From NCBI GenBank assembly GCA_945869405.1, contig CAMBPD010000008.1:1-33483 (forward strand): a stretch of DNA of 33,483 nucleotides. Reading direction: 5' to 3'. Numbering within the stretch: position 1 is the stretch's first letter; the number at the start of each line of letters is the position of its first letter. A program made the position numbers and the translations under genes. The notes beneath the pieces were generated by a model. That model worked only from the letters and a program-made list of their open reading frames with translations, did no database searches and was not told the DNA's origin. The DNA comes from Chryseobacterium gleum. Lineage in GTDB: Bacteria > Bacteroidota > Bacteroidia > Flavobacteriales_D > Sanyastnellaceae. Of this stretch, positions 6,421 to 31,360 are shown piece after piece.

Positions 6421-8466
6421 TTATCGCCAAAACTTGATGAGTAGAATCTCAATTGCCAGAAATATGAGCGACCAAACAATGAGGCTAAGCCAGAATTTTT
6501 GACCATCCTCTATAGTTGCCGCCCCGAGGGCTACCGACTCAATGTCGCCGGCTAACACAGACCAATTTGTGAGCCCAAGCGATTTCAGTTGGTCTGTGAA
6601 TGAGGTAATGTCCATGGTCTTGTTGTAAGACTCCGTGCGATTGTAATTAAAGGCCAACGGCTGCACTGCATTGCTGCCCCAGTTTAGCATATAGTTGCCC
6701 GCTGTTCCTAGGTCGCTGCGCACATACACTTCTACTTGGTTGCCTGCATTGCGATGCTCTGGTATGACCTCTGAATTCGTCAATAGGTTGGCGAGTCTAA
6801 ACGTCTCCTCTCCGTTCATCTGAATATTTCGTAGCACAATGGCTTCTTCACCTCCTAGCACATAGCTCAGTTGCGCTGTTGGTTGAGAGAATTCTGCCAT
6901 GCGCACCAGAGTAGCAGGGAAAAAAGCATGCTGTGTGAAGTTAGTTTCCTCCAAAGCAAGTGAAACGCATGAGAAATAAAGTCGACCATGACCTATCGAC
7001 GCCGAAACTAAAAATGAACTCCCGTTTTGAAGGGTAAGCATAGGCTCTGCCAATTGAGCTGTCGAAAGGGTGAGGTTGTAGTAAAGTGTCGCTGTCGGCA
7101 GGTCGATGTTGCCCGCGCTTCTTTGAAAAGCTTCTTTGAAAATGTAGTGCTCATAGTTCACGGTGGTCACAGGCGACGGAGTGTTCATCTTTCCCGCGAT
7201 TTGGCCTGCCTTCCATAGTGCAAGTGCGGCGTTGTATTCATTGAGAATAATTTCTGTAGCAGGAATAACCAATACGCTGCCGCCCGACTCCATGAATTTA
7301 TTGAGCTCACTTACCAAGCCAGAAGATAGCGAGCGTAGTTGGTTGATCACAATCATCTGCTGACCCGCAAACCGACTGTAGTCGATGGCACTTTCAGGCA
7401 GGCTCGTCCACTCGTAAAAAGGATCATCAGAAAATACAGCTCTCACAGCTTGCGTCGCAGCCAATGTGCCTGCAATTTCCATCACTCGAATGCGCTCGGC
7501 TACGGTGTAACTGAAGTAGTAGGCATCATCTTTTGTAATAGATGCATCATCTATCGACAGTGAACAATGCTTGAATCCAGCCTCTGTATTGGTGTATGTA
7601 ATATCGATAGTGCTGGTGGATGATGCCGGAAGGCTAGCGGTGGCAACGCTTTTTTGAGTGCCATTAATTACCAGTTGCAGCGGCATCGACTCGATGTCTT
7701 CTTCGCCTGTATTTACTATCCGTGCATGCAATATTTCGGGTTGATTTATTTGACGAACTGGGGTTTCAAACCAGACCGAATCGATAAATACATTGGCTTT
7801 TATTTCAGGGAGCTCGGGCACCACGGTAACGCGCATCGTAGTATCATTTACTACTTTCTCGAGATCCGTCACTGAGGCTTGTAAATCGGTGAGCACGAAC
7901 GATTGGCGCTTTTCAAGGCCAGAGGTAACTAAAGCGTCGCGCTGCCTAATTACGATCTCGCTAAGCTTGCGGCTGGCAGGCGAGAGGTCAACTTCTTGAA
8001 TGAGTGAGGTCATCTCTTCCTTGCTGACAAGCCGTTGATGCCGACCTTCAAAATCGCCTGTCAAAAGTTGAAATTTGTCGGAAGGAGAAAACGACTCTAC
8101 GATTTCCAAGGCCTTGTTCTTTGCCAAGTCAAGCATAGCTCCATCTTTTCCTGCTCCCTGCATACTAAAGGAGTTGTCGATGTACACGGAAACGGCAGTG
8201 TCGCCCGGCTTTTCAGTTGCGCCTGGCTTGGGAAGGTAGGGCTGCGCAAATGCAAGCACAATCGCTGCCATGGCCAGCATGCGACTAGCCAGAATGAGCA
8301 GATGTTTTAATTTGCGTTTGCTTTGCGTTTCTTGCTTAATCTCTTTCAAAAAATCAACGTTCGAAAAATACACTTTCTTGAACTTTCGAAAGTTGAATAA
8401 GTGCACGATGATGGGTATCGCAGTAGCGGTTAAACACCAAAGCATTTCTGGATGCACAAATTTCAT
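6421..8466 (-). CDS. BatA (aerotolerance regulator N-terminal) domain membrane protein with VWA-like region
   Basis: N-terminus MKFVHPEMLWCLTATAIPIIVHLFNFRKFKKVYFSNVDFLKEIKQETQSKRKLKHLLIL; VSVYIDNSFSMQG VWA-like motif; C-terminal TM helix. Confidence 0.88.
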   Translation of the reverse strand: MKFVHPEMLWCLTATAIPIIVHLFNFRKFKKVYFSNVDFLKEIKQETQSKRKLKHLLILASRMLAMAAIVLAFAQPYLPKPGATEKPGDTAVSVYIDNSFSMQGAGKDGAMLDLAKNKALEIVESFSPSDKFQLLTGDFEGRHQRLVSKEEMTSLIQEVDLSPASRKLSEIVIRQRDALVTSGLEKRQSFVLTDLQASVTDLEKVVNDTTMRVTVVPELPEIKANVFIDSVWFETPVRQINQPEILHARIVNTGEEDIESMPLQLVINGTQKSVATASLPASSTSTIDITYTNTEAGFKHCSLSIDDASITKDDAYYFSYTVAERIRVMEIAGTLAATQAVRAVFSDDPFYEWTSLPESAIDYSRFAGQQMIVINQLRSLSSGLVSELNKFMESGGSVLVIPATEIILNEYNAALALWKAGQIAGKMNTPSPVTTVNYEHYIFKEAFQRSAGNIDLPTATLYYNLTLSTAQLAEPMLTLQNGSSFLVSASIGHGRLYFSCVSLALEETNFTQHAFFPATLVRMAEFSQPTAQLSYVLGGEEAIVLRNIQMNGEETFRLANLLTNSEVIPEHRNAGNQVEVYVRSDLGTAGNYMLNWGSNAVQPLAFNYNRTESYNKTMDITSFTDQLKSLGLTNWSVLAGDIESVALGAATIEDGQKFWLSLIVWSLIFLAIEILLIKFWR

Positions 8467-8586: not shown

Positions 8587-9816
8587 TCACAACACCCGAC
8601 CACGCAACGTCATGCCTAGCACAGGACTGTTTTTTGATTTGGATTGCCAATTTTCAGAAGTGAACGAGGTGTCTTCATCGGTGAAAATAACGCTTACGGA
8701 AACATTCGAGTCTTCGCTTATAGGGTGCGCGTCCAAGCCCAATACGTGCTCCGGACCAGAGGTGAACTTCTCAATGATTTCTTGGGGTGTCATATGTTTC
8801 TCGAGCGCTGTAAAAGCAGTGCAGAAGGTCGACTCAAGGGAGCTGATCCCGAAAAAGGCGTCGTCAAATTCGCGTACTTTGTGCTCCACATCTTCCGGAC
8901 AATGATCGCTCACAATAGCGTCTATCGTGCCATCTTTCAGTCCGGCGATGAGCGCCCTGCGTTCTTCTTTGCCTCTAAACGGAGGTATAACCTTGAAGTT
9001 GGAATCGAATGTTCTCAGGGAGTCATCAGTAAACAGCAGTTGATGGGCCGCAACAGCACACGTCACGTGCAAGCCATCGCGTTTCGCTTTGCGAATCATC
9101 TCAACACTTCGTGCAGATGAGACTAGCATGAAATGCAACTTGCCGCCGCAGTAGCGCAACAATTCAATATCGCGTTGAACGCGTATTTCTTCGGCAAGGG
9201 TTGGAATGCCTTTCATGCCGAGTGAAACGCTGACTTCTCCTTCGTGCATTTGTCCATTTCCGTTTACTCCGCGATCCCATGGCAGCACCAGTATGCGTCC
9301 GCCGAAATTCTGAGTGTACTCCAGTGCGCGGCACATAAGTTCTGTGCTAATGTCTCCGCGGTCGTCGCTGAAACCAACAGCTCCTGCCTGGTGCATATCA
9401 AACATTTCGGCAAGCTGCTTTCCTTCTAATTTTTGAGAGAGGCCGCCAAGTGAAAGAAGTTCGCACCCAATTTCTGAATGTCCTTTTAGGAAGTGAACAG
9501 CCGATTTAGTATCAACCGCAGGCAGGGTAGAGGGCAAAAGCGCAATCCGCGCGTAGCCTCCTCGTCGTGCAGCTTTTTTTAGACTAATAAAGTCTTCTTT
9601 AAACTCTGCTCCTGGCTCACCGCCGCGAGCGGAAAGATCCGTCCAACCCCTCGAAACAATACAGCCTTTCCCATTGACGGTTTTCGCCTTGGAATCAGTT
9701 ATTTCGTTTGCGATGGAAAGAAGGCGATTACCTTGAACTAGTACATCACGTTTTTTGCCATGATGGCTGGAGGCAGGATCGTGAATCAGCGCTGACTTCA
9801 GAAGGACTTTAATCAT
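8587..9816 (-). CDS. dihydroorotase-like amidohydrolase, probably catalytically degenerate
   Basis: Full-length similarity to type I dihydroorotase (GWTDLSARGGEPGAEFKEDF...RGGYARIALLPSTLPAVDT...HVTCAVAAHQLLFTDD...SDHCPED), but the HxH metal motif reads SAR. Confidence 0.85.
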   Translation of the reverse strand: MIKVLLKSALIHDPASSHHGKKRDVLVQGNRLLSIANEITDSKAKTVNGKGCIVSRGWTDLSARGGEPGAEFKEDFISLKKAARRGGYARIALLPSTLPAVDTKSAVHFLKGHSEIGCELLSLGGLSQKLEGKQLAEMFDMHQAGAVGFSDDRGDISTELMCRALEYTQNFGGRILVLPWDRGVNGNGQMHEGEVSVSLGMKGIPTLAEEIRVQRDIELLRYCGGKLHFMLVSSARSVEMIRKAKRDGLHVTCAVAAHQLLFTDDSLRTFDSNFKVIPPFRGKEERRALIAGLKDGTIDAIVSDHCPEDVEHKVREFDDAFFGISSLESTFCTAFTALEKHMTPQEIIEKFTSGPEHVLGLDAHPISEDSNVSVSVIFTDEDTSFTSENWQSKSKNSPVLGMTLRGRVL

Positions 9817-11008: not shown

Positions 11009-11466
11009 AATGAGAGTCCTATTTTTTTCATTCCAAAGGCAATCGAGGATAAGGCAATGCTCCAAAGAAAAAACCCGAAGATCATTTTAGGTAATGTATT
11101 CGGATTGTGTCGGTATAGTTTGGCCGCAAGCACTGAAGCTATGGGTACAGAAATAAGCACAGAAATAAGCATCAGTCCGTTTATACCCCAGCGTTTTTTT
11201 ATGCGAATGAACCAGCGGTTGCGCCGATTGAAAATTTTGCGTTTGGTATTGAAATGATGACCAAGCCAATTGAAGATAAATTCTCCGAAGTGGAAGAAAA
11301 TGAAGACTCCTAAGGCTGCTCCGGTTGATGAGATGGTAACTACTTCAAGGAATGACCAATCTTCGCCCGCATCGGGTTTCAACGTCATACCGAACGGTAC
11401 AAACAGAAATTTTACAATGGCAAATAACCACCACCCTAAAACTTTGAGGAAATAATCGATTATCAT
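11005..11466 (-). CDS. uncharacterised integral membrane protein (153 aa)
   Basis: Several hydrophobic segments separated by a basic loop (NTKRKIFNRRNRWFIRIKKRWG). Start overlaps the upp stop (ATGA); end overlaps the yjjG-like start (TTGA). Confidence 0.75.
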   Translation of the reverse strand: MIIDYFLKVLGWWLFAIVKFLFVPFGMTLKPDAGEDWSFLEVVTISSTGAALGVFIFFHFGEFIFNWLGHHFNTKRKIFNRRNRWFIRIKKRWGINGLMLISVLISVPIASVLAAKLYRHNPNTLPKMIFGFFLWSIALSSIAFGMKKIGLSF

Positions 11467-12110
11467 TCTTTTTTGCCGAAGGCTAAATCGCCAGCATCAC
11501 CCAAACCTGGAACGATGTAGGAGTGAGCGGTCAATTCAGTGTCTATAGCTCCAATCCAATAGCGCGTGCTTTCAGGTAGCTTACTACGAAGATGTTTTAA
11601 TCCGGTTTCAGAGGCGATAATGGAGGCGATATGTATGTTCGCCGGTTTGCCGCGCTGCATGATTTTTTTGTACACCTTCTCAAGTGAGAATCCGGTGGCA
11701 AGCATCGGGTCGCAGAGGATGAGATCTACCCCGTTGATAGGCGGCGCGCTTACATAGTCTACCTCGATTTCGAAGTTGCCTGCCGCATCGTGTTTGCGGA
11801 AAGCAGCCACAAATGCAGAATCAGAATGATCAAAAATATTCAGCATTCCATGGTGCATAGGAAGGCCTGCTCGCAGAATGGTGCAAAGCATGGGAGAACT
11901 TTTGGGTAGACTTATTTCAGCCATACCTAGCGGCGTTGTTACTTCTTTAGCGCCGTAGTCAAGCGACTTCGAAATTTCATATGCCATTAGTTCGCCTATG
12001 CGTTCAATATTGCGGCGAAAGCGCATCGAGTCCTTCTGGATGTTTTCATCTCGAATCTCAGCCATAAATTGGTTGAAGATTGAGTTTTGCTTGTTGAATT
12101 CGTATACCAT
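11463..12110 (-). CDS. upp: uracil phosphoribosyltransferase
   Basis: GMAEISLPKSSPMLCTILRAGLPMHHGMLNIFDHSDSAFVAAFRK; LILCDPMLATGFSLEKVYKKI PRPP motif; YIVPGLGDAGDLAFG C-terminus. ATG at 12110 preferred over 12209, which overlaps gap. Confidence 0.92.
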   Translation of the reverse strand: MVYEFNKQNSIFNQFMAEIRDENIQKDSMRFRRNIERIGELMAYEISKSLDYGAKEVTTPLGMAEISLPKSSPMLCTILRAGLPMHHGMLNIFDHSDSAFVAAFRKHDAAGNFEIEVDYVSAPPINGVDLILCDPMLATGFSLEKVYKKIMQRGKPANIHIASIIASETGLKHLRSKLPESTRYWIGAIDTELTAHSYIVPGLGDAGDLAFGKKE

Positions 12111-12132
12111 TCTGGGAATTTTGTAGCGCAAG

Positions 12133-13137
12133 TTAATGCGAGATGGAGCATGCCAATAGAACATCACGCAGTCGGTGGCTATAGCCGATCTCATTGTCAT
12201 ACCAACCAACCACTTTTACCATGTTCCCAATTACTGAGGTAAGTTGAGCATCGAATACACAGGATGCAGGATTGCCTACGACATCGATGGATACAATTGG
12301 GTCGTTGGTGTATTCTAAAATTCCCTTCCATCTGTTTGCAGAGGCCAACTCGAAAGCTTGATTGATAGCAGAAATATTCAGTGGATTACGAACGTTGCAC
12401 GTTATGTCGGTAAGAGAACCGTCGGGTACAGGAACGCGGAATCCACAACCTCCCATCTTCTCAAAGAGGTGAGGGAAAACACGCGTTAGTGCTTTGGCTG
12501 CACCTGTGGTAGTAGGTATGATAGAAAGTGCTGCGGCTCGGCCTCTGCGCAAATCCTGGTGAGGCGAGTCGTGAAGGCGCTGGTCGCCGGTGTAACTATG
12601 CACAGTGGTGATGTAGCAGCTTTCAATGCCGCAAAGCTCATCAAGCAGCTGTATCATAGGAGCTGCATTATTGGTAGTACAGGATGCGTTAGAGATAATT
12701 AAATCGCTGGCAGTTATCTCTTTGTCGTTGATCCCAAACACAATTGTCTTTATGCTCTCATCCTCAGGTGGCACACTCAACACAACTCGCTTTGCCCCTG
12801 CAAGGAGGTGTCCGCGCAGCGACTCAGTAGTCTTAAACTGGCCAGTACAATCTACAATTATTTCTGCGCTGCACTCACCCCATGGTATGGCCTGTGGCTG
12901 GGTGTGTGCGAAAAACGGAATTCGTTTGTCAGCGATAAAAATGGCATCGCCACTCGCTGTTACAGTGGTCTTTGTGCTTCCATGCACTGAATCGTATTTG
13001 AACAAATGAGCCATTACGCGAGGCCCTGCTAAGTCATTGACCCCGACAACTTGAAAACGATTATCATGAAGCAATATGCGGGTCAATGCCCTTCCTATAC
13101 GACCGAAGCCGTTAATGCCAATTCGAATGGGGTTCAT
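12133..13137 (-). CDS. gap: type I glyceraldehyde-3-phosphate dehydrogenase
   Basis: MNPIRIGINGFGRIGRALTR Rossmann motif, active site SNASCTTN, VHSYTGDQRLHDSPHQDLRRGRAAALSIIPTTTGAAKAL, WYDNEIGYSHRL. Confidence 0.95.
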   Translation of the reverse strand: MNPIRIGINGFGRIGRALTRILLHDNRFQVVGVNDLAGPRVMAHLFKYDSVHGSTKTTVTASGDAIFIADKRIPFFAHTQPQAIPWGECSAEIIVDCTGQFKTTESLRGHLLAGAKRVVLSVPPEDESIKTIVFGINDKEITASDLIISNASCTTNNAAPMIQLLDELCGIESCYITTVHSYTGDQRLHDSPHQDLRRGRAAALSIIPTTTGAAKALTRVFPHLFEKMGGCGFRVPVPDGSLTDITCNVRNPLNISAINQAFELASANRWKGILEYTNDPIVSIDVVGNPASCVFDAQLTSVIGNMVKVVGWYDNEIGYSHRLRDVLLACSISH

Positions 13138-15643: not shown

Positions 15644-16765
15644 ATGATACGTACTCAATTCCCCGCAGTTCTAGTCCTTCAAGACGGTACTGTATTCCAC
15701 GGAAAGTCTTGCGGCAAAAGCGGCACCGCCACAGGAGAAATTGCCTTCAATACAGCCATGACCGGTTACCAAGAAGTATTCACCGACCCTAGTTACTTCG
15801 GTCAAGTGTTGGTAATGGCTTCGGCTCACATCGGCAATTATGGTGTACATCGTGATGAGATAGAATCCGACACCTGCAAGGTGGCTGGTGTAATCATCAA
15901 GAAATTTTCGGATGTAGCCAGTCGTGTCGGACCTATAGGTACTCTGCAAGACTACCTCGATCGTGACGGCGTGGTGGGAATATGTGATATTGATACACGC
16001 GCCTTAGTGCGACACATTCGCAAGGCAGGAGCGATGAATTGTATTATTTCTACAGATGATTCTAGTGTCGAATCACTGAAAAAACAACTCGATCAAGTCC
16101 CTTCAATGGATGGCCTCGAACTGGGAAGTTTTGTGTCTTGTAAAGAAGCCTATGAGATGGGCGACGAGGAATCTGTGTTTCGCATTGCGGTGCTCGATTT
16201 CGGCTTGAAACGCAACATATTACGTTGCCTAACTGAGCGTAATTGTAAGGTGAAGGTGTTCCCGATGAGTGCTTCAAAAGAGGAAATTCTCCACTACAAA
16301 CCTGATGGCATAATGTATGGAAATGGTCCGGGCGATCCATCTGCAATGCCCCAAACCATTCGCCTTATTGCTGAGCTGGTTGAAACAGGCCTGCCCGGTT
16401 TTGGTATCTGCTTGGGGCATCAGCTTATCGGATTGTCACAAGGACTTCAAACCGTCAAAATGTTCAACGGGCACAGAGGCATAAATCATCCCGTAAAGAA
16501 TTTGATTACCGGGAAAAGTGAAATTACTAGCCAAAATCATGGATTTGTTATTTCAAAAGAATCCATAGCCTCAAGTGCAGCAGCAGAAATCACACATGTG
16601 CATTTAAACGATGGCACTGTGGCAGGTATTAGGCTGACGCAGTTTCCTGTTTTTTCGGTTCAGTATCACCCAGAGGCAAGCGCGGGTCCCCACGATTCGC
16701 GCTACCTTTTTGATCAATTTATAGCGAATATTACAAGTGGTAAAAAGATTGCCACAGTTCACTGA
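15644..16765 (+). CDS. carA: carbamoyl-phosphate synthase small subunit
   Basis: AVLVLQDGTVFHGKSCGKSGTATGEIAFNTAMTGYQEVFTDPSY; glutaminase GFGICLGHQLIGLS; VQYHPEASAGPHDSRYLFDQF. Confidence 0.96.
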   Translation: MIRTQFPAVLVLQDGTVFHGKSCGKSGTATGEIAFNTAMTGYQEVFTDPSYFGQVLVMASAHIGNYGVHRDEIESDTCKVAGVIIKKFSDVASRVGPIGTLQDYLDRDGVVGICDIDTRALVRHIRKAGAMNCIISTDDSSVESLKKQLDQVPSMDGLELGSFVSCKEAYEMGDEESVFRIAVLDFGLKRNILRCLTERNCKVKVFPMSASKEEILHYKPDGIMYGNGPGDPSAMPQTIRLIAELVETGLPGFGICLGHQLIGLSQGLQTVKMFNGHRGINHPVKNLITGKSEITSQNHGFVISKESIASSAAAEITHVHLNDGTVAGIRLTQFPVFSVQYHPEASAGPHDSRYLFDQFIANITSGKKIATVH

Positions 16766-21707: not shown

Positions 21708-23669
21708 TTATTTCTTCTTACCCGTGACGATAAACTCCGTGCGACGGTTATCCTCGTGAAGAGGCTCCTCGCAGAATATTCCGTCTGTGCAGTCATTCAA
21801 TAACTCACGTTCTCCATAGCCCTTCGATACAATAGTCGCTCTAGGCACGCCTTTCTTAACCATATAATCTGTAACCGCTTTCGCTCGCTTCGATGAAAGA
21901 TCATCGTTGTATTCAAAGCTTCCACGGCAATCGGTATGGCTGCGAAGTTCAAATTTCAAGTTGTTATTCTCACGGAATAGTTTCACCAAATTATCCAAGT
22001 ATGGTGTTGCATCATTCCGAATATCCCACTTGTTATAGTCCCAGTGAATATCAGGTAAATCATAAATTCCCTTGGCTTTAACCTTGCTGTTATCTTTCTT
22101 TCCGCCACTTGCCCCGTTAGCATCGGTTACATACAACTCGGCCATCTCAATCATTTTATTGATTGGATCTCCGTTGCCACGGGTGTCAAAATTTTCGGTT
22201 TGGTTGAAATACCCTTCCAATTCGTTAATCATTTGGTAGTCTTTACCCTTCATCAACTCAGCGGTTAACTTACCATTACCATCTGTGATGTACATCTGTT
22301 CTGTTCCATCCGTTAGGTTCTTCAATGTAATTTTGGCTCCACCTAGGGGAAGCTTGCTATCTCTGCCCGACACCAAAACATTGAACGTTACCTTAGAGTC
22401 GTCTTCAATGAAGCTGAAAATGCGGTCGCTGCCATATCGATCACTCGAAAAGTAGCCAGTTTTGTTGTCTGCGTTCCAGGCTATGCTGAAATCATCATAA
22501 GAGCTATTTAGAGGATAACTTAGGTGAACAGGTCTTTCCCAAATACCGTTACGGTTGGCAGAGGTCATCAAATCATAGCCTCCTATGCTTTCGATTATAT
22601 CGCTTGAATAGTAAAGCTCGTCATCGCGTCGTAGAGTAGGGAAAATTTCATTTCCTGCTGAGTTTACATTGCCGCCCAAATTCATTGGAGTACCCCAAAC
22701 GTTGTCACTCATTTTAACAACCCAAATATCCATGCCTCCAAAACCTCCAGGCATATCACTAGAAAAATAGAGTGTCTTTCCATCAGACGCAAAAGCAGGG
22801 TGAGCAAACATATTCTTATTATCGCTGAAAGGCAGAATCGTAGCCTTTTCCCATGTACCATCCGCTGCCTTACGACTTGTATACAATTGAGTAGTACTCA
22901 CCTTATTCTCGTTTCCAGCCAAACTACCCGACTCAAGCGTGTAGCTGCGTGTGAACACCATCGTGTTTCCTGTCGGAGAAACAGAAGCGACAGCATCGTG
23001 ATAGTTACTATTGATTCCAGATATTTCTTGCGGCTGGCTCCAAGAAGCACCCTCACGTTTTGTAAAGTATAAATTGGTGTAGGACATTTTGGTGTATGGA
23101 TCGAGTTCTCCAGTTCCAGATGGACTTGTGATCAATAACCCTCCGTTGAATAGACTAGGGGCATAAACGGGACCCGCAGTTGGTATATTCATTGGTTCGA
23201 CAATGTAGCTCATTGAGTCTGATTTCAAACGAGCGATATTCTTACAGCTAGCCAGTAATTGCTTCGCATAGGCATTGGATGCATCACGGCTTGTGATTCC
23301 CTCCAAAATGGCTTTAGCATCGAGGTAACGCTCCTTCGCCATGAGGGCGCGTGCATAGCTTACTCGATCCTTGTCTGTGTTATCAGTGTAGGTAGAGGTG
23401 ATCTCAAAATTAGCTAATGCATTGTTGTAATCATTCACCTTCATATAACTATCCGCAAGTTTGCGACGCGCATCAGCCTCATCTTTCTTGGCTATTCCTT
23501 TACCTAGGTAATAAATAGCGTCGTTGTATTGCAAATTGTCGTAAGCATCCTTGCCTGCTTTAGTATACAAACTTGCGCAACTGCCTAGCATAAGACTGGC
23601 TAGTAAAAGAGCAGTAACGCTTTGTAGTATTGAATTCTTTTTCATGATCTTCGTTTTGTTGATGTTCAC
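21708..23669 (-). CDS. PorE-like OmpA-family lipoprotein (TPR - PD40/WD40-like propeller - regulatory beta domain - OmpA)
   Basis: Lipobox LMLGSC; TPR-like repeats; HPAFASDGKTLYFSSDMPGGFGGMDIW propeller motifs; GGAKITLKNLTDG carboxypeptidase-regulatory-like segment; OmpA motif LRSHTDCRGSFEYNDDLSSKRAKAVTDYMVKKGV. Possible start at 23645 (MKKNSILQ). Confidence 0.88.
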   Translation of the reverse strand: MNINKTKIMKKNSILQSVTALLLASLMLGSCASLYTKAGKDAYDNLQYNDAIYYLGKGIAKKDEADARRKLADSYMKVNDYNNALANFEITSTYTDNTDKDRVSYARALMAKERYLDAKAILEGITSRDASNAYAKQLLASCKNIARLKSDSMSYIVEPMNIPTAGPVYAPSLFNGGLLITSPSGTGELDPYTKMSYTNLYFTKREGASWSQPQEISGINSNYHDAVASVSPTGNTMVFTRSYTLESGSLAGNENKVSTTQLYTSRKAADGTWEKATILPFSDNKNMFAHPAFASDGKTLYFSSDMPGGFGGMDIWVVKMSDNVWGTPMNLGGNVNSAGNEIFPTLRRDDELYYSSDIIESIGGYDLMTSANRNGIWERPVHLSYPLNSSYDDFSIAWNADNKTGYFSSDRYGSDRIFSFIEDDSKVTFNVLVSGRDSKLPLGGAKITLKNLTDGTEQMYITDGNGKLTAELMKGKDYQMINELEGYFNQTENFDTRGNGDPINKMIEMAELYVTDANGASGGKKDNSKVKAKGIYDLPDIHWDYNKWDIRNDATPYLDNLVKLFRENNNLKFELRSHTDCRGSFEYNDDLSSKRAKAVTDYMVKKGVPRATIVSKGYGERELLNDCTDGIFCEEPLHEDNRRTEFIVTGKKK

Positions 23670-23681
23670 TTTCAGTTTGTT

Positions 23682-24602
23682 TTAGAAGTAACGAGGTGAA
23701 CGTGTTTTCACCAAAGCTGCTTTGCCCAAATCGTATCCAAGCATCACCTCATGAGAGTTGCTGCTGTAGTTGGAAATAGAACTCAGCGTGTAGTCGAAGG
23801 CATAACCGATGCGTAATTGAGTATTGACATTCCACTCGAGCATCGTTACTAAGGCATCGCCTGTGCGATAGCCCGCACCAAACCAAAACTTATTCATGAA
23901 TAAAACATTGCAGTTAAGGTCTACGCTCACAGGTGCATCTCCTTGAACCTTCACCAAAATGCTTGGTTTTACAGCCAGTTCAGGTATAGGAGTAAAGACC
24001 ATTCCCGTGTTGATGTAAATGTGGTTCTTGTAAAAACTATTTACGCCTGTTGTTGTGTAGCTGATTTTATCGTCTATTGAGAGTAACGACGGAATGGCAA
24101 GCCCGGCGAAGAAATTACTTTGGTAGTAATACAAACCAGCACCAACTCGTGGAATCATTGTGCCATTGATGTTGTTGGCATACACTGGATCTTCCACATC
24201 TTTGATTATGGCGTCTGTAAGTTGGGCTGTGTAACGAGACATTCCCAAGCGTAAACCAAAGCTTAGCTTTCCTTTGCCCATGTTTACGTGCGTGGCTCCG
24301 TTGGCATTTATATCGAGCACATTGGTTATTCCTAACGCATCATTGCTCACATTGAAGCCAAGACCTGCTTTGCCACCCATGATCTGGCCGTCAGCGCTCA
24401 AAAATTGTGTGCGAGGGGCATTGTCAAATTTCACCCATTGACTGCGATGTAGCAAACTAGTGCTCCAGTAGTCGTGCGTGCCAGCGTATGCCGGGTTCAA
24501 TACCATGCTGTTGAACATGTATTGACTAATCATAAGCTCCTGCTGGGCTGTGAGGCTAACGGCAGAAATTACGATGGCTATGAGGATAATATATTTTTTC
24601 AT
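23682..24602 (-). CDS. type IX secretion system membrane protein, PorP/SprF family
   Basis: Signal peptide then QQELMISQYMFNSMVLNPAYAGTHDYWSTSLLHRSQWVKFDNAPRTQFLSADGQIMGGKAGLGFNVSNDALG, the characteristic PorP/SprF N-terminus. Confidence 0.95.
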   Translation of the reverse strand: MKKYIILIAIVISAVSLTAQQELMISQYMFNSMVLNPAYAGTHDYWSTSLLHRSQWVKFDNAPRTQFLSADGQIMGGKAGLGFNVSNDALGITNVLDINANGATHVNMGKGKLSFGLRLGMSRYTAQLTDAIIKDVEDPVYANNINGTMIPRVGAGLYYYQSNFFAGLAIPSLLSIDDKISYTTTGVNSFYKNHIYINTGMVFTPIPELAVKPSILVKVQGDAPVSVDLNCNVLFMNKFWFGAGYRTGDALVTMLEWNVNTQLRIGYAFDYTLSSISNYSSNSHEVMLGYDLGKAALVKTRSPRYF

Positions 24603-24641
24603 AGTGTTGTTGTCTTTATTGAATTCTTGTTACCGTTCGTA

Positions 24642-27600
24642 TTAGTTTCTACGGAGGTCAACGTACGTATTGAATTTCGCACCACATCCTTCGAATATCA
24701 CAAAGTAGGTACCGTCAGAGAGGGTGTTGCCATCCATATCTTGACCAAACCATTCGTTTAAGTAACTGTCTTTTTCATAAACAAGATTACCCCAACGGTT
24801 GAAAACCTTGAATTGATTGTCCGGACAGTCTTGAACACCATCAATAACATAGGTGTCGTTGAAGCTGTCTCCATTCGGAGATAGAGCCGTATACAACTTC
24901 AAAGCATCTGGATCTGTTAATGTGATAACCGTGTCTACCGAACAACCGTTGGCGTCCACAATTTGTAACGTGTAATCACCAGCAACTAATCCAGTTGGAT
25001 TATTCTCATCTGTTTCAATCGTGTTTGGCGTCCAATTATAAATGTAGTCTGGCGTTCCTTCCTCTGCATCCACGAGGATAGATCCGTTAGAGCCCCCCGG
25101 GCTAGATATGTTGTATACGTTGGTGGCGATGCTGTACTCACTCAACGTGATAGTAACGCTTAATGCCAATGGTGATGCAATAACAATGGTCGCTGTAGTG
25201 TCACATCCTGAAGCATCCGATACGAAAACTTCATAAGAGCCAGTTGGAAGATTTGAAATCAATGATTCAATTCCAATAACGTTCTCATTGCTATCTGTCC
25301 ATGAATATGTGAACTCAGGTGTTCCACCATTTGTGAGCACACTTGCAGCGCCCGTGCTGTCGCCAGCACAAAGAGCGTTAGTTATATCCAAAGTGACCAA
25401 TAATCCTGTGGATTGTTGAATGTTGAAGCTCAGCGAATCAGAACATCCAAGTGCGTCAGTTACAACGATAGTGTAGAGATCCGCACACAAATTGCTCAAA
25501 TCTTCTGTTTGCTCTCCATTGGCCCACTGGTAAGTGAATCCTGCAGAACCACCACCCACCGATACATCAATACTACCATTGCAGCCACCGCAACTCGCAT
25601 CTGTATCTATACCGTTAATGGCAAATGGTGCATCCGGAACTTGCACATTCACTTCATTTGTTGCAGATGGGCAGTCATTTGCATCAGTTACGATAACACT
25701 TAGGTCGCCGCTACTGATAACATTCACGCAATCGAGGTTTCCACCATTGCTCCAATCCAAGGTTAGTGGGGCAGTGCCTCCGGTAACAACCGCGCATGCA
25801 CTGGCAGTGCCTAAAGCACAATCACCGGTTACAACGATTTCGACACTTAACAAACCTGGATCAACTATGGTTATAGTTTCCTCATGTGAACATCCGCTGT
25901 CAATGTCATCAATACTGATGATATAATCTCCAGCGCAAAGCTCAGTAAGCACAGTCTCTGAGGAACTAAAACCATTCGGACCTGACCACACAATTAGTGC
26001 GTTGGAACCTACATTGTTTATGGTAGCGTTGATAGATCCGTCGCATGGAACTACACCTGTGCAACTGATGGCTTCAACAATTGCGTCCACTGTAATCGCA
26101 GGAGGAGCGACTAATGTGAATGTAATTGGAAACTGGCAGAAGTTAGCGTCTATTACGACAACATCGTAGACACCAGGACCCAAATCAATCTGATCCTCTG
26201 AACCATCAATGACATTGTTGCCTTGCCATTCGAAGGTGTAGGGTGCAACACCACCTGATACTGTGAGGTCTATGAAGCCATCCGTGCTATTGAAACAAGC
26301 AAGGTTGAATTCAGTGCTGAATTGCGACATTGTATCTGAGACAGAAAGGGGCAACTCCGGTTCAGTGAGAATAACACAACTTTGTGCTGAACAGGCATCG
26401 CCATCAATAATGTTCAAACAATAGATTCCTGCCGCAAGTGAACTAGGGTCTTCAGAAAGTGAAATGATCGTTCCTGATGCATCTGTCCAAGAAATATCGT
26501 ATGGCGCTGTGCCTCCAGAAATAGTTGCGTTTACAGAGCCTGTTGAATCGCCCGAGCATTGAATTGAATACTGTTGGCCTTCTTCCTGAATAAGGATCTC
26601 TGTGAGAACGATTAATTCATCAGGACTGTTTATAGTGATCGTGCTTGAACTCTCACAACCGTTGGCATCAATAATCACTAGGTCATGTGTTCCTCTGCAT
26701 ATACTGTCTATCACACCAGGAATAACGATTGATAATTCTATACCATCCACAAGCACTGTGAAAGGCGCTTCACCGCCTTCTACCGATACAGATGCTGTTC
26801 CATCACAAGTAGCGAAGCAACTGGCATCAGTGGTTGATTCAACGGTTGTTTCCGGAGTGGATACATCCATGATTTCGTAGTCGAATGTCTCCTGACAGCC
26901 ATTCGAATCGGTAATGGTTAAAGTGAAAGCTCCTGCTGACAGACCGCAGAGTGTAGCCGCATTTGGCTCGTTAGCACCAATGTTGCCGGTCCATTCATAT
27001 GCGATGAATGTACTGCTTCCTCCTTGAATGTTGGGGGTAATACAACCCTCATCGCTTGCGCAAGTAATGTTCTGAATTATTGCGGGTGATTGTATTGAAT
27101 CGGGTGCAATCAAGTCTAAGCAAGTGGTTGCTAAACATCCATTGGCATCAGTAACATTTATACCATAGGAACCACCAGGTAGGTTAGTTGCATTAGGAGC
27201 GTTAGGGTCGTTGCCGTAGAGTGAAGGGTCAATCTCTGAGCAGTCGTTAATCCAATCGTATTGGTAGTCGAAAGGTGCAAATGCTATCGGGTCAGGGGTA
27301 CCACCAGATACGAACACAGATATGGCTCCGTCATTCGAATTGTGGCAACTCAGATTATAGCCACCTTCAAATTGTGAGGTAACAACAGTAAGTTCCATTA
27401 CTAGAGGTGCATCTAAGGTGAACTCAGAAAGTATGTTACATCCTGTTACTAAGTCAGTAATACTCACAGTGAAGTCACATGCAGGTAAGTTGTTTACGTC
27501 TTGTGTGGTAGCACCAAAGAAGAAACACGCAGGCTGTGGAATCCATTGATAGTTGTAACTACCACTGCCACCAAGTACGTTGATGTCTATACTTCCGTTG

Positions 27601-30600
27601 TTTTGACCAAAGCAAGTCGGATCAATTTGATTTACTACTTGTACACTGATAGACTCTGCCGCCGGAACGGTAAAGAAAAGTGTTTCCTCACAGTCTCCGT
27701 TGCTAATTAATACTGAGTAATCGCCCGGGCAAAGACCCGATACATCTTGTGTGGTTGGTGCTGGTCCATTGAATGGACCGCTCCAAGTGTAAGTGAAGTT
27801 GCCTTCGACCGGGTTGCCACCACCGCCGCCGCCACCGCCGCCGCTTCCACCGGTAGTTTCCACCTGGAAGATTGAGGCGGATGCTGCAGAGCACGAGTTG
27901 TCGTTGATGGGGGAATTGAATCCAATAGGCGTAGAATAGCTTGAAGTTGTCGTAGCACCTGCGCCATCTGTATCCGAGAATGTCAATGTAGCGTCGGTTA
28001 GAGAACCAAAGTCGAGGCTTACGCAGTCATAAATTTGAACAGCCCATCCCGGTTGGTTCGCGTCACAGCCATACAATGGTGACCAATCGATCGCGGTGCC
28101 ATTAGAATAAGCACCGTAGTTACCCGAAAGTGGAGTAGCTGCAGCGCATACACTAAAGGCATCCGTGTTTGAATTGGTGAAGCAAAGACTGTTGATGTTG
28201 TTGCCGCTATTGCACGGTGCACTTGAGTTTTGAGACAACAAAATGTCTGGGCTGCCGCAGCTTGGCGGACCAACTAGGTGAAATGCCAAGTCGGATACAT
28301 ATGTGTGCAAGGCAGTAAAGCAAATTTGAATCGTTGAATTCGGGGAGAGTGGAAATGGCGTGACTCCACCACCACCACTGCCATCGGTGAGTGTGATATC
28401 GATTGAACCGTCGCACAACTCAGGGCATGTTTCGCCTGTAACGTCACCGGTAGCAACGAACGCATCATTTTGTCCAATATTCGCGCTGGTCGAATCCGCA
28501 CAACCTTGCGCATCGGTAACGATGAGTAGGTAATCACCAGAATCAAGGTTAGTGATATCTGCAGTAGAACAAGGCGCGCAGCTAGGGCCTGTCCAAACAT
28601 AGTTATAGGGCTCCCCTTGTCCACCCGAAGTTGATGTAACCGTAATAGCACCTAGAGAAGCTGTAGGGCTTCCGCAAGGGTTGTTTTGAACATCGATTAC
28701 CACATCAATTTCAGGAACGCATGTAAGTGTTACCTCTTCTGTAATCTCGCAATCATTAGAGTCTGTAACTCTCAACGAATAAGATCCGCATGCTACGTCA
28801 GAAAGGTCTTCCAAATCAGAAAAAATAGCGCCTGTTGCATTATTGGTCCACTCGAATGTGTATGGAGTTGTGCCTGCACTCGACGTGACATTCACAAATC
28901 CATCTGTGCTGTTTGGACAGCTAACACTAAAGCCTCCGGGGTATAAAGAAACCTCGTCAATGATTACCTGCAATGGATCGATTGGATCGTTGATTACAAT
29001 CGTAACACTACCTGCGCTGTTACAACCGTTTTGATCTGTTACACTTACGTCGTAAGTCCCGCTGCCCAAATTAGTAGCTACTGGACCGATTACAGTTGCG
29101 CTATGGCTCCACGAATAGGTGTAAGGTGCACAACCTCCTGTTGATGCAACACTGGCTTCACCCGTCTCTACTCCTGTGCACTGCAAATCAACTGAGCCCA
29201 CTACTTCGATTAAAACTACTGACGGCTCTGTCAATGTGTATGAGTTACTGTATTCACATCCCGTTGCGTCAGTTAGCGTCAATTCATACGTGCCCGCGCA
29301 GAGAGCGGAAATACCCTCGGTTGAGGAATTGTATCCTTCCGGACCTGTCCAAGCGAAATTGTAAGGAGCTTGACCGCCGCTTATATCAAGGCTAATTGAG
29401 CCATCACAAGATCCAAAACATGAAATTTGGTTACATGTGAAATCTGAAAGGGTTGAAATTGCAGTTAATTCATTCGTCTGAATTACACTCGTGCAAGCAG
29501 TATCTAAGCAACCTGTTGCATCTGTAAGGGTAAGGCAGTATTCACCAATAATTAACCCAGTCAAACTATCCGCATTACTTGTAAAACCATTTGGTCCTGT
29601 CCAGTTGTAGGTGCTCGGAGCAATGGCGTTTTCAATGGTTACTGATATAGTGCCATTCGTTCCATTAGCACAAAATACGGGTGTTGATGTCAATTCGATC
29701 TGAATAGATGATGGGAGCAATTCGACTAGGGTACATGCACTGTTGACGCATCCTGCTGCATCTGTAACAGTTAAGCAATATTCTCCACCATCAACATTGA
29801 TAAGGCTATCATTGCTGCTGACAAAACCATTCGGGCCTGTCCAACTATAAGTGTATGGTTCTATGGCATCCCTTATGTCGGAAGTAACAATGCCATTGCC
29901 AGCTCCTTGGCAGCTCGCTGGGCTTGCGGTAAGTTCAACAGCGATGCTTGAAACGTTGATGGTAATTTCATCTGTTCCGCTACACGCTCCAACTGATGCA
30001 TTAAGGCTGTAGGTTGTAGCTTGCGTTGGGCAAACTTCAGCAGTCAAGCTTTCACCATTAGTCACATTTGAAGACCATTCGAATGTCGTGCTGGGAAGGT
30101 TTGGAACAACACCTGTAAGTGTGACGCAATTGCCAATGCAGCTATTTGTTGAATCCGCTGTTAGTTGCACATCCAGAAAATCGTTGATGTAAAAATTAAT
30201 GCTGTCAGAAGCGCCGTTTTCCAAACACAATGGATTAGCGAGATAAATAGTAATGTACTCTTGGCCTTCAGGCAAGTTGTCGTCCGTTGCTGTGATATTA
30301 AAGGTCACAGAAGATTGATTCGGTGGAATAATAACAGCGTTTTGCGCAAATGGAATTCCATTGCCGATAGTTGGTGTGTAATCAACTCCATTCGTTGCTG
30401 AACCTCCGACCCAATAAAGAACTTCTGTGGGCTGATCATCTACAATTTGGCGTGTGAACGTGATGCTTCCATCAGAGCAGCCTTCAACCATATACTCTAA
30501 TCCGTTCGAAGTAGCAGTAGATACTAACACTGGATTTGACTCAATAGATTGAATGAAAACTCCAGAGTCGTATACGTGGTCGGTGCCGTCGGCAATAACC

Positions 30601-31319
30601 AATTTCAGGTGGTAGGTCTCGCAGGGAAATAGTCCACCAACCTTAGCGATAAGGTTACGCGTAAATCCATCGTACTGCACAAATTGCCCAAGAGGGTTTT
30701 GGTTGTTGTAATAGAACGCTTGGTTGGTCAAAGCGTTGATAGTGTTGATGGATACGACTTGGCCCGTCGTGGGTATGAGGGCGATGTTCACATCGGTGCC
30801 AATTCCAGGACCACTAATGTAAAATCCGAATACATCGTTAAACTGTGATCCAACCCACTCATTATACTCCTCAGAAGCAAATGTATATTTGAATTTCAGC
30901 GAGTCACCTTGTGGTACGATGTCGAATTCAAACTGCGTTGCATCGTATGTAGTGCGACTTTGTGCTTGGTTGAGCAAAACACTTCCAGGACAATCATTAT
31001 CGAAGTAATCGCAAGTGCCTGCACTAGTGGAGCAATTGCCAATCGAGTTGTTAGGTCCCTGAGCATAGAGCGCTTTACCGGTTGTTAGGAGCAAGCCTTG
31101 CGATGTTCCAATTTCGGTTGCGGCAGATTGATAGTAACCGTAGCTACTATCACAAGCAGTCACGGTAACGTTCGAAATTGCCACCCCTGGTCCAACAAGG
31201 TTTTGAACTATTTGTTCTGGCGTGAGCGACACATTCACGTTCAATTGGGCGTTCAACCCTTGGATACTCAGCAACCCTAGGGCTACTACGAAGAGTTTTT
31301 TGAAGTTTAATCGTATCAT
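24642..31319 (-). CDS. giant SprB-repeat adhesin with choice-of-anchor L head, Calx-beta-like domain, about 18 SprB-type repeats, P-domain-like insert and gliding-motility-associated (T9SS type B) C-terminal domain
   Basis: Signal peptide MIRLNFKKLFVVALGLLSIQGLNAQ; many CDGSI...PYTFxW...GxYxLxVTDxxGC units; C-terminus LYTALSPNGDSFNDTYVIDGVQDCPDNQFKVFNRWGNLVYEKDSYLNEWFGQDMDGNTLSDGTYFVIFEGCGAKFNTYVDLRRN. ATG at 31319 preferred over 31340. Confidence 0.95.
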   Translation of the reverse strand: MIRLNFKKLFVVALGLLSIQGLNAQLNVNVSLTPEQIVQNLVGPGVAISNVTVTACDSSYGYYQSAATEIGTSQGLLLTTGKALYAQGPNNSIGNCSTSAGTCDYFDNDCPGSVLLNQAQSRTTYDATQFEFDIVPQGDSLKFKYTFASEEYNEWVGSQFNDVFGFYISGPGIGTDVNIALIPTTGQVVSINTINALTNQAFYYNNQNPLGQFVQYDGFTRNLIAKVGGLFPCETYHLKLVIADGTDHVYDSGVFIQSIESNPVLVSTATSNGLEYMVEGCSDGSITFTRQIVDDQPTEVLYWVGGSATNGVDYTPTIGNGIPFAQNAVIIPPNQSSVTFNITATDDNLPEGQEYITIYLANPLCLENGASDSINFYINDFLDVQLTADSTNSCIGNCVTLTGVVPNLPSTTFEWSSNVTNGESLTAEVCPTQATTYSLNASVGACSGTDEITINVSSIAVELTASPASCQGAGNGIVTSDIRDAIEPYTYSWTGPNGFVSSNDSLINVDGGEYCLTVTDAAGCVNSACTLVELLPSSIQIELTSTPVFCANGTNGTISVTIENAIAPSTYNWTGPNGFTSNADSLTGLIIGEYCLTLTDATGCLDTACTSVIQTNELTAISTLSDFTCNQISCFGSCDGSISLDISGGQAPYNFAWTGPEGYNSSTEGISALCAGTYELTLTDATGCEYSNSYTLTEPSVVLIEVVGSVDLQCTGVETGEASVASTGGCAPYTYSWSHSATVIGPVATNLGSGTYDVSVTDQNGCNSAGSVTIVINDPIDPLQVIIDEVSLYPGGFSVSCPNSTDGFVNVTSSAGTTPYTFEWTNNATGAIFSDLEDLSDVACGSYSLRVTDSNDCEITEEVTLTCVPEIDVVIDVQNNPCGSPTASLGAITVTSTSGGQGEPYNYVWTGPSCAPCSTADITNLDSGDYLLIVTDAQGCADSTSANIGQNDAFVATGDVTGETCPELCDGSIDITLTDGSGGGGVTPFPLSPNSTIQICFTALHTYVSDLAFHLVGPPSCGSPDILLSQNSSAPCNSGNNINSLCFTNSNTDAFSVCAAATPLSGNYGAYSNGTAIDWSPLYGCDANQPGWAVQIYDCVSLDFGSLTDATLTFSDTDGAGATTTSSYSTPIGFNSPINDNSCSAASASIFQVETTGGSGGGGGGGGGNPVEGNFTYTWSGPFNGPAPTTQDVSGLCPGDYSVLISNGDCEETLFFTVPAAESISVQVVNQIDPTCFGQNNGSIDINVLGGSGSYNYQWIPQPACFFFGATTQDVNNLPACDFTVSITDLVTGCNILSEFTLDAPLVMELTVVTSQFEGGYNLSCHNSNDGAISVFVSGGTPDPIAFAPFDYQYDWINDCSEIDPSLYGNDPNAPNATNLPGGSYGINVTDANGCLATTCLDLIAPDSIQSPAIIQNITCASDEGCITPNIQGGSSTFIAYEWTGNIGANEPNAATLCGLSAGAFTLTITDSNGCQETFDYEIMDVSTPETTVESTTDASCFATCDGTASVSVEGGEAPFTVLVDGIELSIVIPGVIDSICRGTHDLVIIDANGCESSSTITINSPDELIVLTEILIQEEGQQYSIQCSGDSTGSVNATISGGTAPYDISWTDASGTIISLSEDPSSLAAGIYCLNIIDGDACSAQSCVILTEPELPLSVSDTMSQFSTEFNLACFNSTDGFIDLTVSGGVAPYTFEWQGNNVIDGSEDQIDLGPGVYDVVVIDANFCQFPITFTLVAPPAITVDAIVEAISCTGVVPCDGSINATINNVGSNALIVWSGPNGFSSSETVLTELCAGDYIISIDDIDSGCSHEETITIVDPGLLSVEIVVTGDCALGTASACAVVTGGTAPLTLDWSNGGNLDCVNVISSGDLSVIVTDANDCPSATNEVNVQVPDAPFAINGIDTDASCGGCNGSIDVSVGGGSAGFTYQWANGEQTEDLSNLCADLYTIVVTDALGCSDSLSFNIQQSTGLLVTLDITNALCAGDSTGAASVLTNGGTPEFTYSWTDSNENVIGIESLISNLPTGSYEVFVSDASGCDTTATIVIASPLALSVTITLSEYSIATNVYNISSPGGSNGSILVDAEEGTPDYIYNWTPNTIETDENNPTGLVAGDYTLQIVDANGCSVDTVITLTDPDALKLYTALSPNGDSFNDTYVIDGVQDCPDNQFKVFNRWGNLVYEKDSYLNEWFGQDMDGNTLSDGTYFVIFEGCGAKFNTYVDLRRN

Positions 31320-31360
31320 AATTGATTTGAAAGAATACATTGTTAATGACAGTGGGTAAA

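Follow-up and report, generated by a model that had tools for sequence, protein, structure and literature searches.

A dihydroorotase homologue with a degenerate active site accompanies native PyrB across Bacteroidia

The window, the 33,483-nucleotide stretch of DNA analysed here, carries on its reverse strand a gene for a homologue of type I dihydroorotases (DHOases), designated pseudo-dihydroorotase (pDHO), beside a gene for a BatA-like membrane protein (Table 1). The open reading frame has no internal stop codons, and its product aligns end to end with the DHOases of T. thermophilus (2z00; E 2.7e-68) and A. aeolicus (3d6n and 4bjh; E about 1e-61, with 2.6e-61 for 3d6n). Its score of 269.5-269.7 bits against TIGR00857, the model of the catalytic type I enzyme, fell short of the curated cut-off of 279.05 bits; that cut-off was also missed by the catalytic paralogue of the same genome (L002), which passes its own equivalog, PRK09236. 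A Pfam scan of pDHO at E 0.001 returned zero matches and was uninformative. The AlphaFold2 model was confident (pLDDT 91.4, pTM 0.92), and a Foldseek search with this model returned type I DHOases as the nearest structures, including chain A of 3d6n, the A. aeolicus DHOase bound to aspartate transcarbamoylase (ATCase; TM 0.90), whereas the free form of the Aquifex enzyme was more distant (TM 0.74-0.77). The closer match of the predicted fold to the bound form is at most suggestive of an ATCase-bound role. Elsewhere in the window, a uracil phosphoribosyltransferase-family gene and carA were observed, which with pDHO makes three pyrimidine-related genes in about 8 kb that do not form an operon; farther along, a 2,232-residue repetitive protein adjoins PorP/SprF-like and OmpA-like genes in an apparent type IX secretion/gliding cluster.

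Table 1 Coordinates of the pDHO gene, its degenerate and retained active-site positions and other features of the window.
Feature	Position	Strand	Evidence
Pseudo-dihydroorotase (pDHO), 409 aa, ATG start	8587..9816	-	homology to DHOases; AlphaFold2/Foldseek
BatA-N-terminal-domain membrane protein, conserved pDHO neighbour	6421..8466	-	PF07584, E 2e-21
DLSARGGEPG, degenerate DxHxHxREPG motif (H61 to S, H63 to R, R65 to G)	9610..9639	-	alignment to A. aeolicus/T. thermophilus DHOase
Ser96 in place of substrate-binding Asn95 (N95 to S)	9529..9531	-	alignment
Asp152, kept counterpart of A. aeolicus D153 (FSDD)	9361..9363	-	alignment
Leu178 in place of His180 (RILVLPWD)	9283..9285	-	alignment
Leu231 in place of His232 (LHFMLVSS)	9124..9126	-	alignment
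Asp304, kept counterpart of D305 (SDH)	8905..8907	-	alignment
Glu308 in place of substrate-binding His309 (H309 to E)	8893..8895	-	alignment
Uracil phosphoribosyltransferase-family gene	11463..12209		
carA	15644..16765		
PorP/SprF-like and OmpA-like genes with the repetitive protein	21708..31340		
2,232-aa repetitive protein	24642..31340		

Active-site residues, numbered as in A. aeolicus DHOase, were assigned by alignment to the A. aeolicus and T. thermophilus enzymes. The loss of both histidines of the D-x-H-x-H motif, which the earlier note had read from the sequence, was borne out (A. aeolicus DIHVHLRDPG corresponds to DLSARGGEPG), as were its replacement of the two later histidine ligands, H180 and H232, both now leucine, and its retention of the aspartate of the SDH region. 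The alignment goes beyond that note in showing that D153 is also kept and that R65, N95 and H309, the substrate-binding residues of type I DHOases, have changed to glycine, serine and glutamate. Four of the six metal ligands and three substrate-binding residues are therefore altered, and of the alpha-metal HxH plus Asp and substrate-binding Arg/Asn/His that mark the catalytic type, S/R stand for HxH, G/S/E for the substrate-binding trio, and the Asp alone persists. Because an A. aeolicus H180A/H232A double mutant is still fully active (PMC3880350), the H180 and H232 losses carry less weight and are not diagnostic; what is diagnostic is that the alpha-site pair H61/H63 has gone together with the substrate-binding residues. 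Nor does loss of zinc ligands alone prove inactivity, because a Pseudomonas PyrC paralogue lacking them has been reported to possess DHOase activity (cited in PMC2770081). Judged by the full set of residues lost, pDHO probably has no catalytic activity.

Whole-genome searches, and a scan over the genomes of named species, recovered relatives of pDHO from Flavobacterium, Gillisia, Pedobacter, Pontibacter, Emticicia, Fulvivirga, Saprospiraceae metagenome-assembled genomes (MAGs) and many others. In an alignment of 168 DHOase-like sequences, the roughly 140 Bacteroidia homologues keep none to three of the six metal ligands, whereas the pyrB-adjacent DHOases of the other classes of the phylum keep six of six. 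Among 107 non-redundant pDHOs, the H61, H63, H180 and H232 columns fall in the 84th-93rd percentile of variability, and D153 survives in only seven, being G or Y in most; the same four histidines do not vary at all among 15 pyrB-linked relatives, and in both sets many scaffold positions are invariant. Conserved stretches of the pDHO surface include EGKxLAEMxDM and MHEGxVSTxLGLKGIP. The active site has been freed from selection, and the remainder of the protein has not. The closest relatives (74% identical) show the same kind of active-site changes, and one pair, the closest that was not fully saturated, gave a dN/dS of about 0.07, a rough figure with dS near saturation. Sequencing error and pseudogene decay were considered and rejected, given a frame open in all close relatives, this low ratio and a pattern recurring in about 140 homologues. 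Clear Bacteroidia pDHO loci also occur in three public MAG records (L088, L124 and L141), whose respective labels, Chryseobacterium gleum, Bifidobacterium breve and Thalassobius, look wrong. Our search of the open literature found no paper on this Bacteroidetes family, although the study of ATCase quaternary structures by Labedan et al. (2004) may touch on it.

The earlier note had advised looking for a second pyrC, and the genome does contain one: L002 (G000, contig C158, 734-2074) encodes a full-length PRK09236-type DHOase scoring 714 bits against a cut-off of 535 and 552 bits against P. gingivalis 2gwn. A separate catalytic DHOase, which is a feature of genomes with class A2 ATCases, was also found in G045, G206 and G262. 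Catalysis of the third pathway step would thus fall to the PRK09236-type enzyme and not to pDHO, as far as the sequences of the two proteins indicate. The motif of L002, the presumed catalytic enzyme, reads DDQVHFREPG, with glutamine for the first histidine of the HxH pair; P. gingivalis 2gwn shares this glutamine, as do several relatives from Bacteroidia, whereas some others (L198, L202 and L203) have histidine at this position.

In a tree of 78 sequences, 49 pDHOs formed a single clade (SH-aLRT 99), which grouped with the pyrB-adjacent, six-ligand DHOases of the other classes and with A. aeolicus DHOase (SH-aLRT 94), while the catalytic L002 branched apart from this group. The simplest history would be that a PyrB-bound DHOase lost catalysis in the ancestor of most Bacteroidia and that an unrelated DHOase then took over step three. 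Furthermore, pDHO grouped with alphaproteobacterial PyrX in the DHOase tree (SH-aLRT 96), which included no Pseudomonas sequence; the PyrB tree disagrees, as the PyrX-linked PyrB of Alphaproteobacteria is not sister to native Bacteroidia PyrB. The two pseudo-DHOases, pDHO and PyrX, may share an origin or may have converged.

With the PyrB of this genome as query, 247 Bacteroidia genomes were divided into those with native PyrB and those in which PyrB was of another kind or absent. Native copies were 63-82% identical to the query in the sample compared, and the others were 33-50% identical or absent. Fragmented native copies in four drafts (G322, G346, G438 and G449) were recognised by query scores far above the general-model score, unlike foreign copies; a PyrB is called foreign here if it falls outside the native clade, on a long branch, and it may represent either a transferred replacement or fast divergence after release. 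Among 215 good Bacteroidia genomes (at least 90% complete, at most 5% contaminated; counts tallied by hand), 185 had native PyrB and pDHO, none had native PyrB without pDHO, 28 had neither, and two had pDHO with no PyrB found (Fisher's exact p about 4e-33, uncorrected for kinship). PyrB was not found in the pDHO-bearing drafts G431 and G483, nor in G312 (estimated 100% complete), where a very diverged pDHO sits beside BatA. The homologues in G312 and in family f87 (checked in G366) are very remote and degenerate, and both were counted as lacking a close pDHO; G072 was reclassified as negative, its match being L183, a DHOase with six of six ligands on a long branch outside the pDHO clade.

By family code, the 28 double-negative genomes represent at least eight lineages, with the PyrI-bearing families f11, f98, f103 and f107 counted as one. 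Families f84, f66 (G312) and f72 (G318) have no convincing PyrB; f87, f94 and the Weeksellaceae-like f5 have a divergent one, and G379 of f64 a foreign one; in the Hymenobacter-like f9, G166 has no PyrB, and G072 has a foreign PyrB with an adjacent six-ligand DHOase. A comparison within one genus (f64 g158) is consistent with this pattern: G434, with both native and foreign PyrB, keeps pDHO, and G379, with only the foreign copy, does not. All nine PyrI-positive genomes lack pDHO; PyrI exclusion as the sole proof was nevertheless rejected as too weak, since these genomes carry one PyrB lineage, and the test by PyrB type was used instead. The genome studied here has a pyrB gene (G000:C43:3876-4775) and no match to the PyrI model TIGR00240, and this class A2 combination of PyrB without PyrI holds across the class. 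Collectively, pDHO tracks the native PyrB lineage almost perfectly and went too where PyrB was lost or replaced. As a separate observation, a Hymenobacter volaticus plasmid (L254) bears the same ligand-complete pyrB-pyrC pair as G072 (L249), the PyrBs being 96% identical, and neither PyrB nor a PRK09236-type DHOase was found in G166, which shares its genus code with G072, suggesting that pyrimidine synthesis was lost and regained via plasmids.

The genes around pDHO show a different association. Across 80 named loci, BatA adjoins pDHO in 61 and lies immediately upstream in 59, and DUF4199 and GT2 glycosyltransferase genes lie within 3 kb downstream in about 40. Retained without pDHO, the BatA-like gene occurs in G166, G330, G364 and G072, precisely in genomes that lack native PyrB, and G254 has pDHO with no BatA found; the Weeksellaceae-like, f94 and PyrI-positive families lack both. 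Because each gene is kept without the other, pDHO follows PyrB and not its neighbours. A functional tie to BatA, DUF4199 or the glycosyltransferase was therefore set aside as weaker than the PyrB link, and the BatA-like neighbour is probably not functionally tied to pDHO. No pyrB was found beside pDHO in the flanks (up to 8 kb) of the 80 named loci, and in this genome the two genes lie on different contigs, so that the class A2 feature of a gene next to pyrB is missing; such adjacency is usual, not essential, for a class A2 pseudo-DHOase, whose defining trait is the complex. Two local peculiarities were also seen. In this genome (6421-9816), L087 and L088, the BatA-like gene follows pDHO, whereas in L091 and most other loci BatA comes first; we read this as a local rearrangement in a small clade. 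In Rufibacter tibetensis plasmid 2 (L255, NZ_CP012645.1), a 12.5-kb circle with six annotated genes, pDHO, two DUF4199 genes and a glycosyltransferase make up the whole content; this is a genuine excised plasmid or else a chromosomal fragment produced by misassembly.

We consider it very probable that pDHO is a type I DHOase devoid of catalysis that provides a class A2-like ATCase with its non-catalytic subunit. In Aquifex, two PyrB trimers are held together by three DHOase dimers to give a dodecameric ATCase; the pDHO of P. aeruginosa is dead, but in its absence the PyrB chain is a monomer with no activity (PMC7053772). Disruption of S. meliloti smc01361, a DHOase-like gene adjoining pyrB, causes pyrimidine auxotrophy (PMC5929573). 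These reports agree with the statement of the earlier note that inactive DHOase-like subunits support ATCase in other bacteria. Its suggestion of a structural role in pyrimidine synthesis likewise appears well supported by genomics, through the clade-wide site loss, the second DHOase and the distribution following native PyrB, and we propose this role in Bacteroidia from the homology to the P. aeruginosa and S. meliloti systems and from the distribution of pDHO. By analogy with the active DHOase of Aquifex and with PyrC' of Pseudomonas, dimers of pDHO would join two PyrB trimers in a PyrB6-pDHO6 dodecamer, native PyrB would need this partner to assemble and be active, and the third step would be performed by the separate PRK09236-type DHOase; we infer the contact with PyrB, the 6:6 stoichiometry and the dependence from those systems. 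Counting against a role as ATCase subunit are the unlinked pyrB, the possible exceptions G312, G431 and G483, with pDHO or a very diverged form of it and no PyrB found, and the conserved neighbours, which could hint at another role.

Such a role could lie in the cell envelope or at the cell surface, with pDHO recruited together with its BatA-like, DUF4199 and glycosyltransferase neighbours and no longer in pyrimidine synthesis. The gene order conserved over the named loci and the joint absence of BatA and pDHO from the Weeksellaceae, f94 and PyrI-positive families would fit this idea, which is nonetheless very improbable given the genomes that keep one gene without the other and the far tighter association with native PyrB. 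A working DHOase with another metal arrangement, or with no metal, for instance under zinc shortage, has in its favour the retained D153 and D305, the dispensable beta-site histidines of A. aeolicus (PMC3880350) and the Pseudomonas paralogue reported to be active (cited in PMC2770081). We judge it extremely improbable, since the protein has neither the two alpha-site histidines nor R65, N95 and H309, orthologues share no substitute set of ligands and vary freely at the positions concerned (even D153 is mostly G or Y), a full-length PRK09236-type DHOase is present, and the distribution of pDHO follows PyrB and not the catalytic DHOase. Finally, pDHO might mainly regulate ATCase by nucleotide sensing, in the manner of PyrI, with PyrB active on its own. 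Mutual exclusion with PyrI in nine of nine genomes fits a swap of one regulator for another; pDHO is, however, also gone where PyrB was replaced without PyrI (Weeksellaceae, f94, G379 and G072), and nucleotide effects on P. aeruginosa ATCase have been ascribed to destabilisation of the complex and not to allostery (PMC7053772), which makes this reading decidedly unlikely.

Extending the ATCase-subunit reading to the phylum, we think it likely that catalysis was lost once in the ancestor of most Bacteroidia, that step three passed to an unrelated DHOase, and that the inactive subunit turned into an obligate assembly partner of native PyrB encoded away from pyrB, discardable only with the loss or replacement of PyrB (at least eight times), so that many genomes misannotate as 'dihydroorotase' an ATCase subunit needed for pyrimidine synthesis. 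The annotation would be corrected in Flavobacteriales, Cytophagales, Sphingobacteriales, Chitinophagales and Saprospirales, and the prediction is that the committed step of pyrimidine synthesis requires pDHO, although pDHO itself catalyses nothing. The phylum offers natural experiments on the passage from enzyme to obligate scaffold, with a ligand-complete, pyrB-linked partner in sister classes, a dead partner in Bacteroidia, and replacement by PyrI or a new pyrB-pyrC pair, which make the dependence of PyrB on pDHO directly testable.

Among known systems, pDHO would be a phylum-wide addition to the pseudo-DHOase subunits of class A2-type ATCases, as it shows the sequence and genome features examined, namely a full-length type I homologue with its catalytic centre lost and its fold kept, a separate catalytic DHOase and PyrB without PyrI, except for adjacency to pyrB. 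It resembles Pseudomonas PyrC'/pDHO of class A2 in being a type I homologue without zinc ligands that coexists with a catalytic DHOase (PMC7053772, PMC2770081); PyrC' is required for PyrB trimerisation and activity (PMC7053772), whereas the Bacteroidia protein belongs to a different phylum and is not encoded beside pyrB. Alphaproteobacterial PyrX (S. meliloti smc01361; Shinella L253, Azospirillum L252) has also lost its ligands (RFGEQS, RLGHHD) and shares R65 to G with most pDHOs, but it directly follows pyrB. The class A1 DHOase-ATCase complex of A. aeolicus (3d6n) is among the closest folds and homologous over the full length, although in Aquifex the DHOase has its full set of ligands and is catalytically active when complexed. 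In contrast to the pseudo-DHOase domain of the fungal CAD-like Ura2, which is fused into a eukaryotic multienzyme, pDHO is a separate protein. Its nearest ligand-complete relatives in the DHOase tree are the pyrB-adjacent DHOases of the other classes of the phylum (L040-L065), which, unlike pDHO, keep six of six ligands and are encoded right behind pyrB, and the PyrBs of those loci are sister to native Bacteroidia PyrB.
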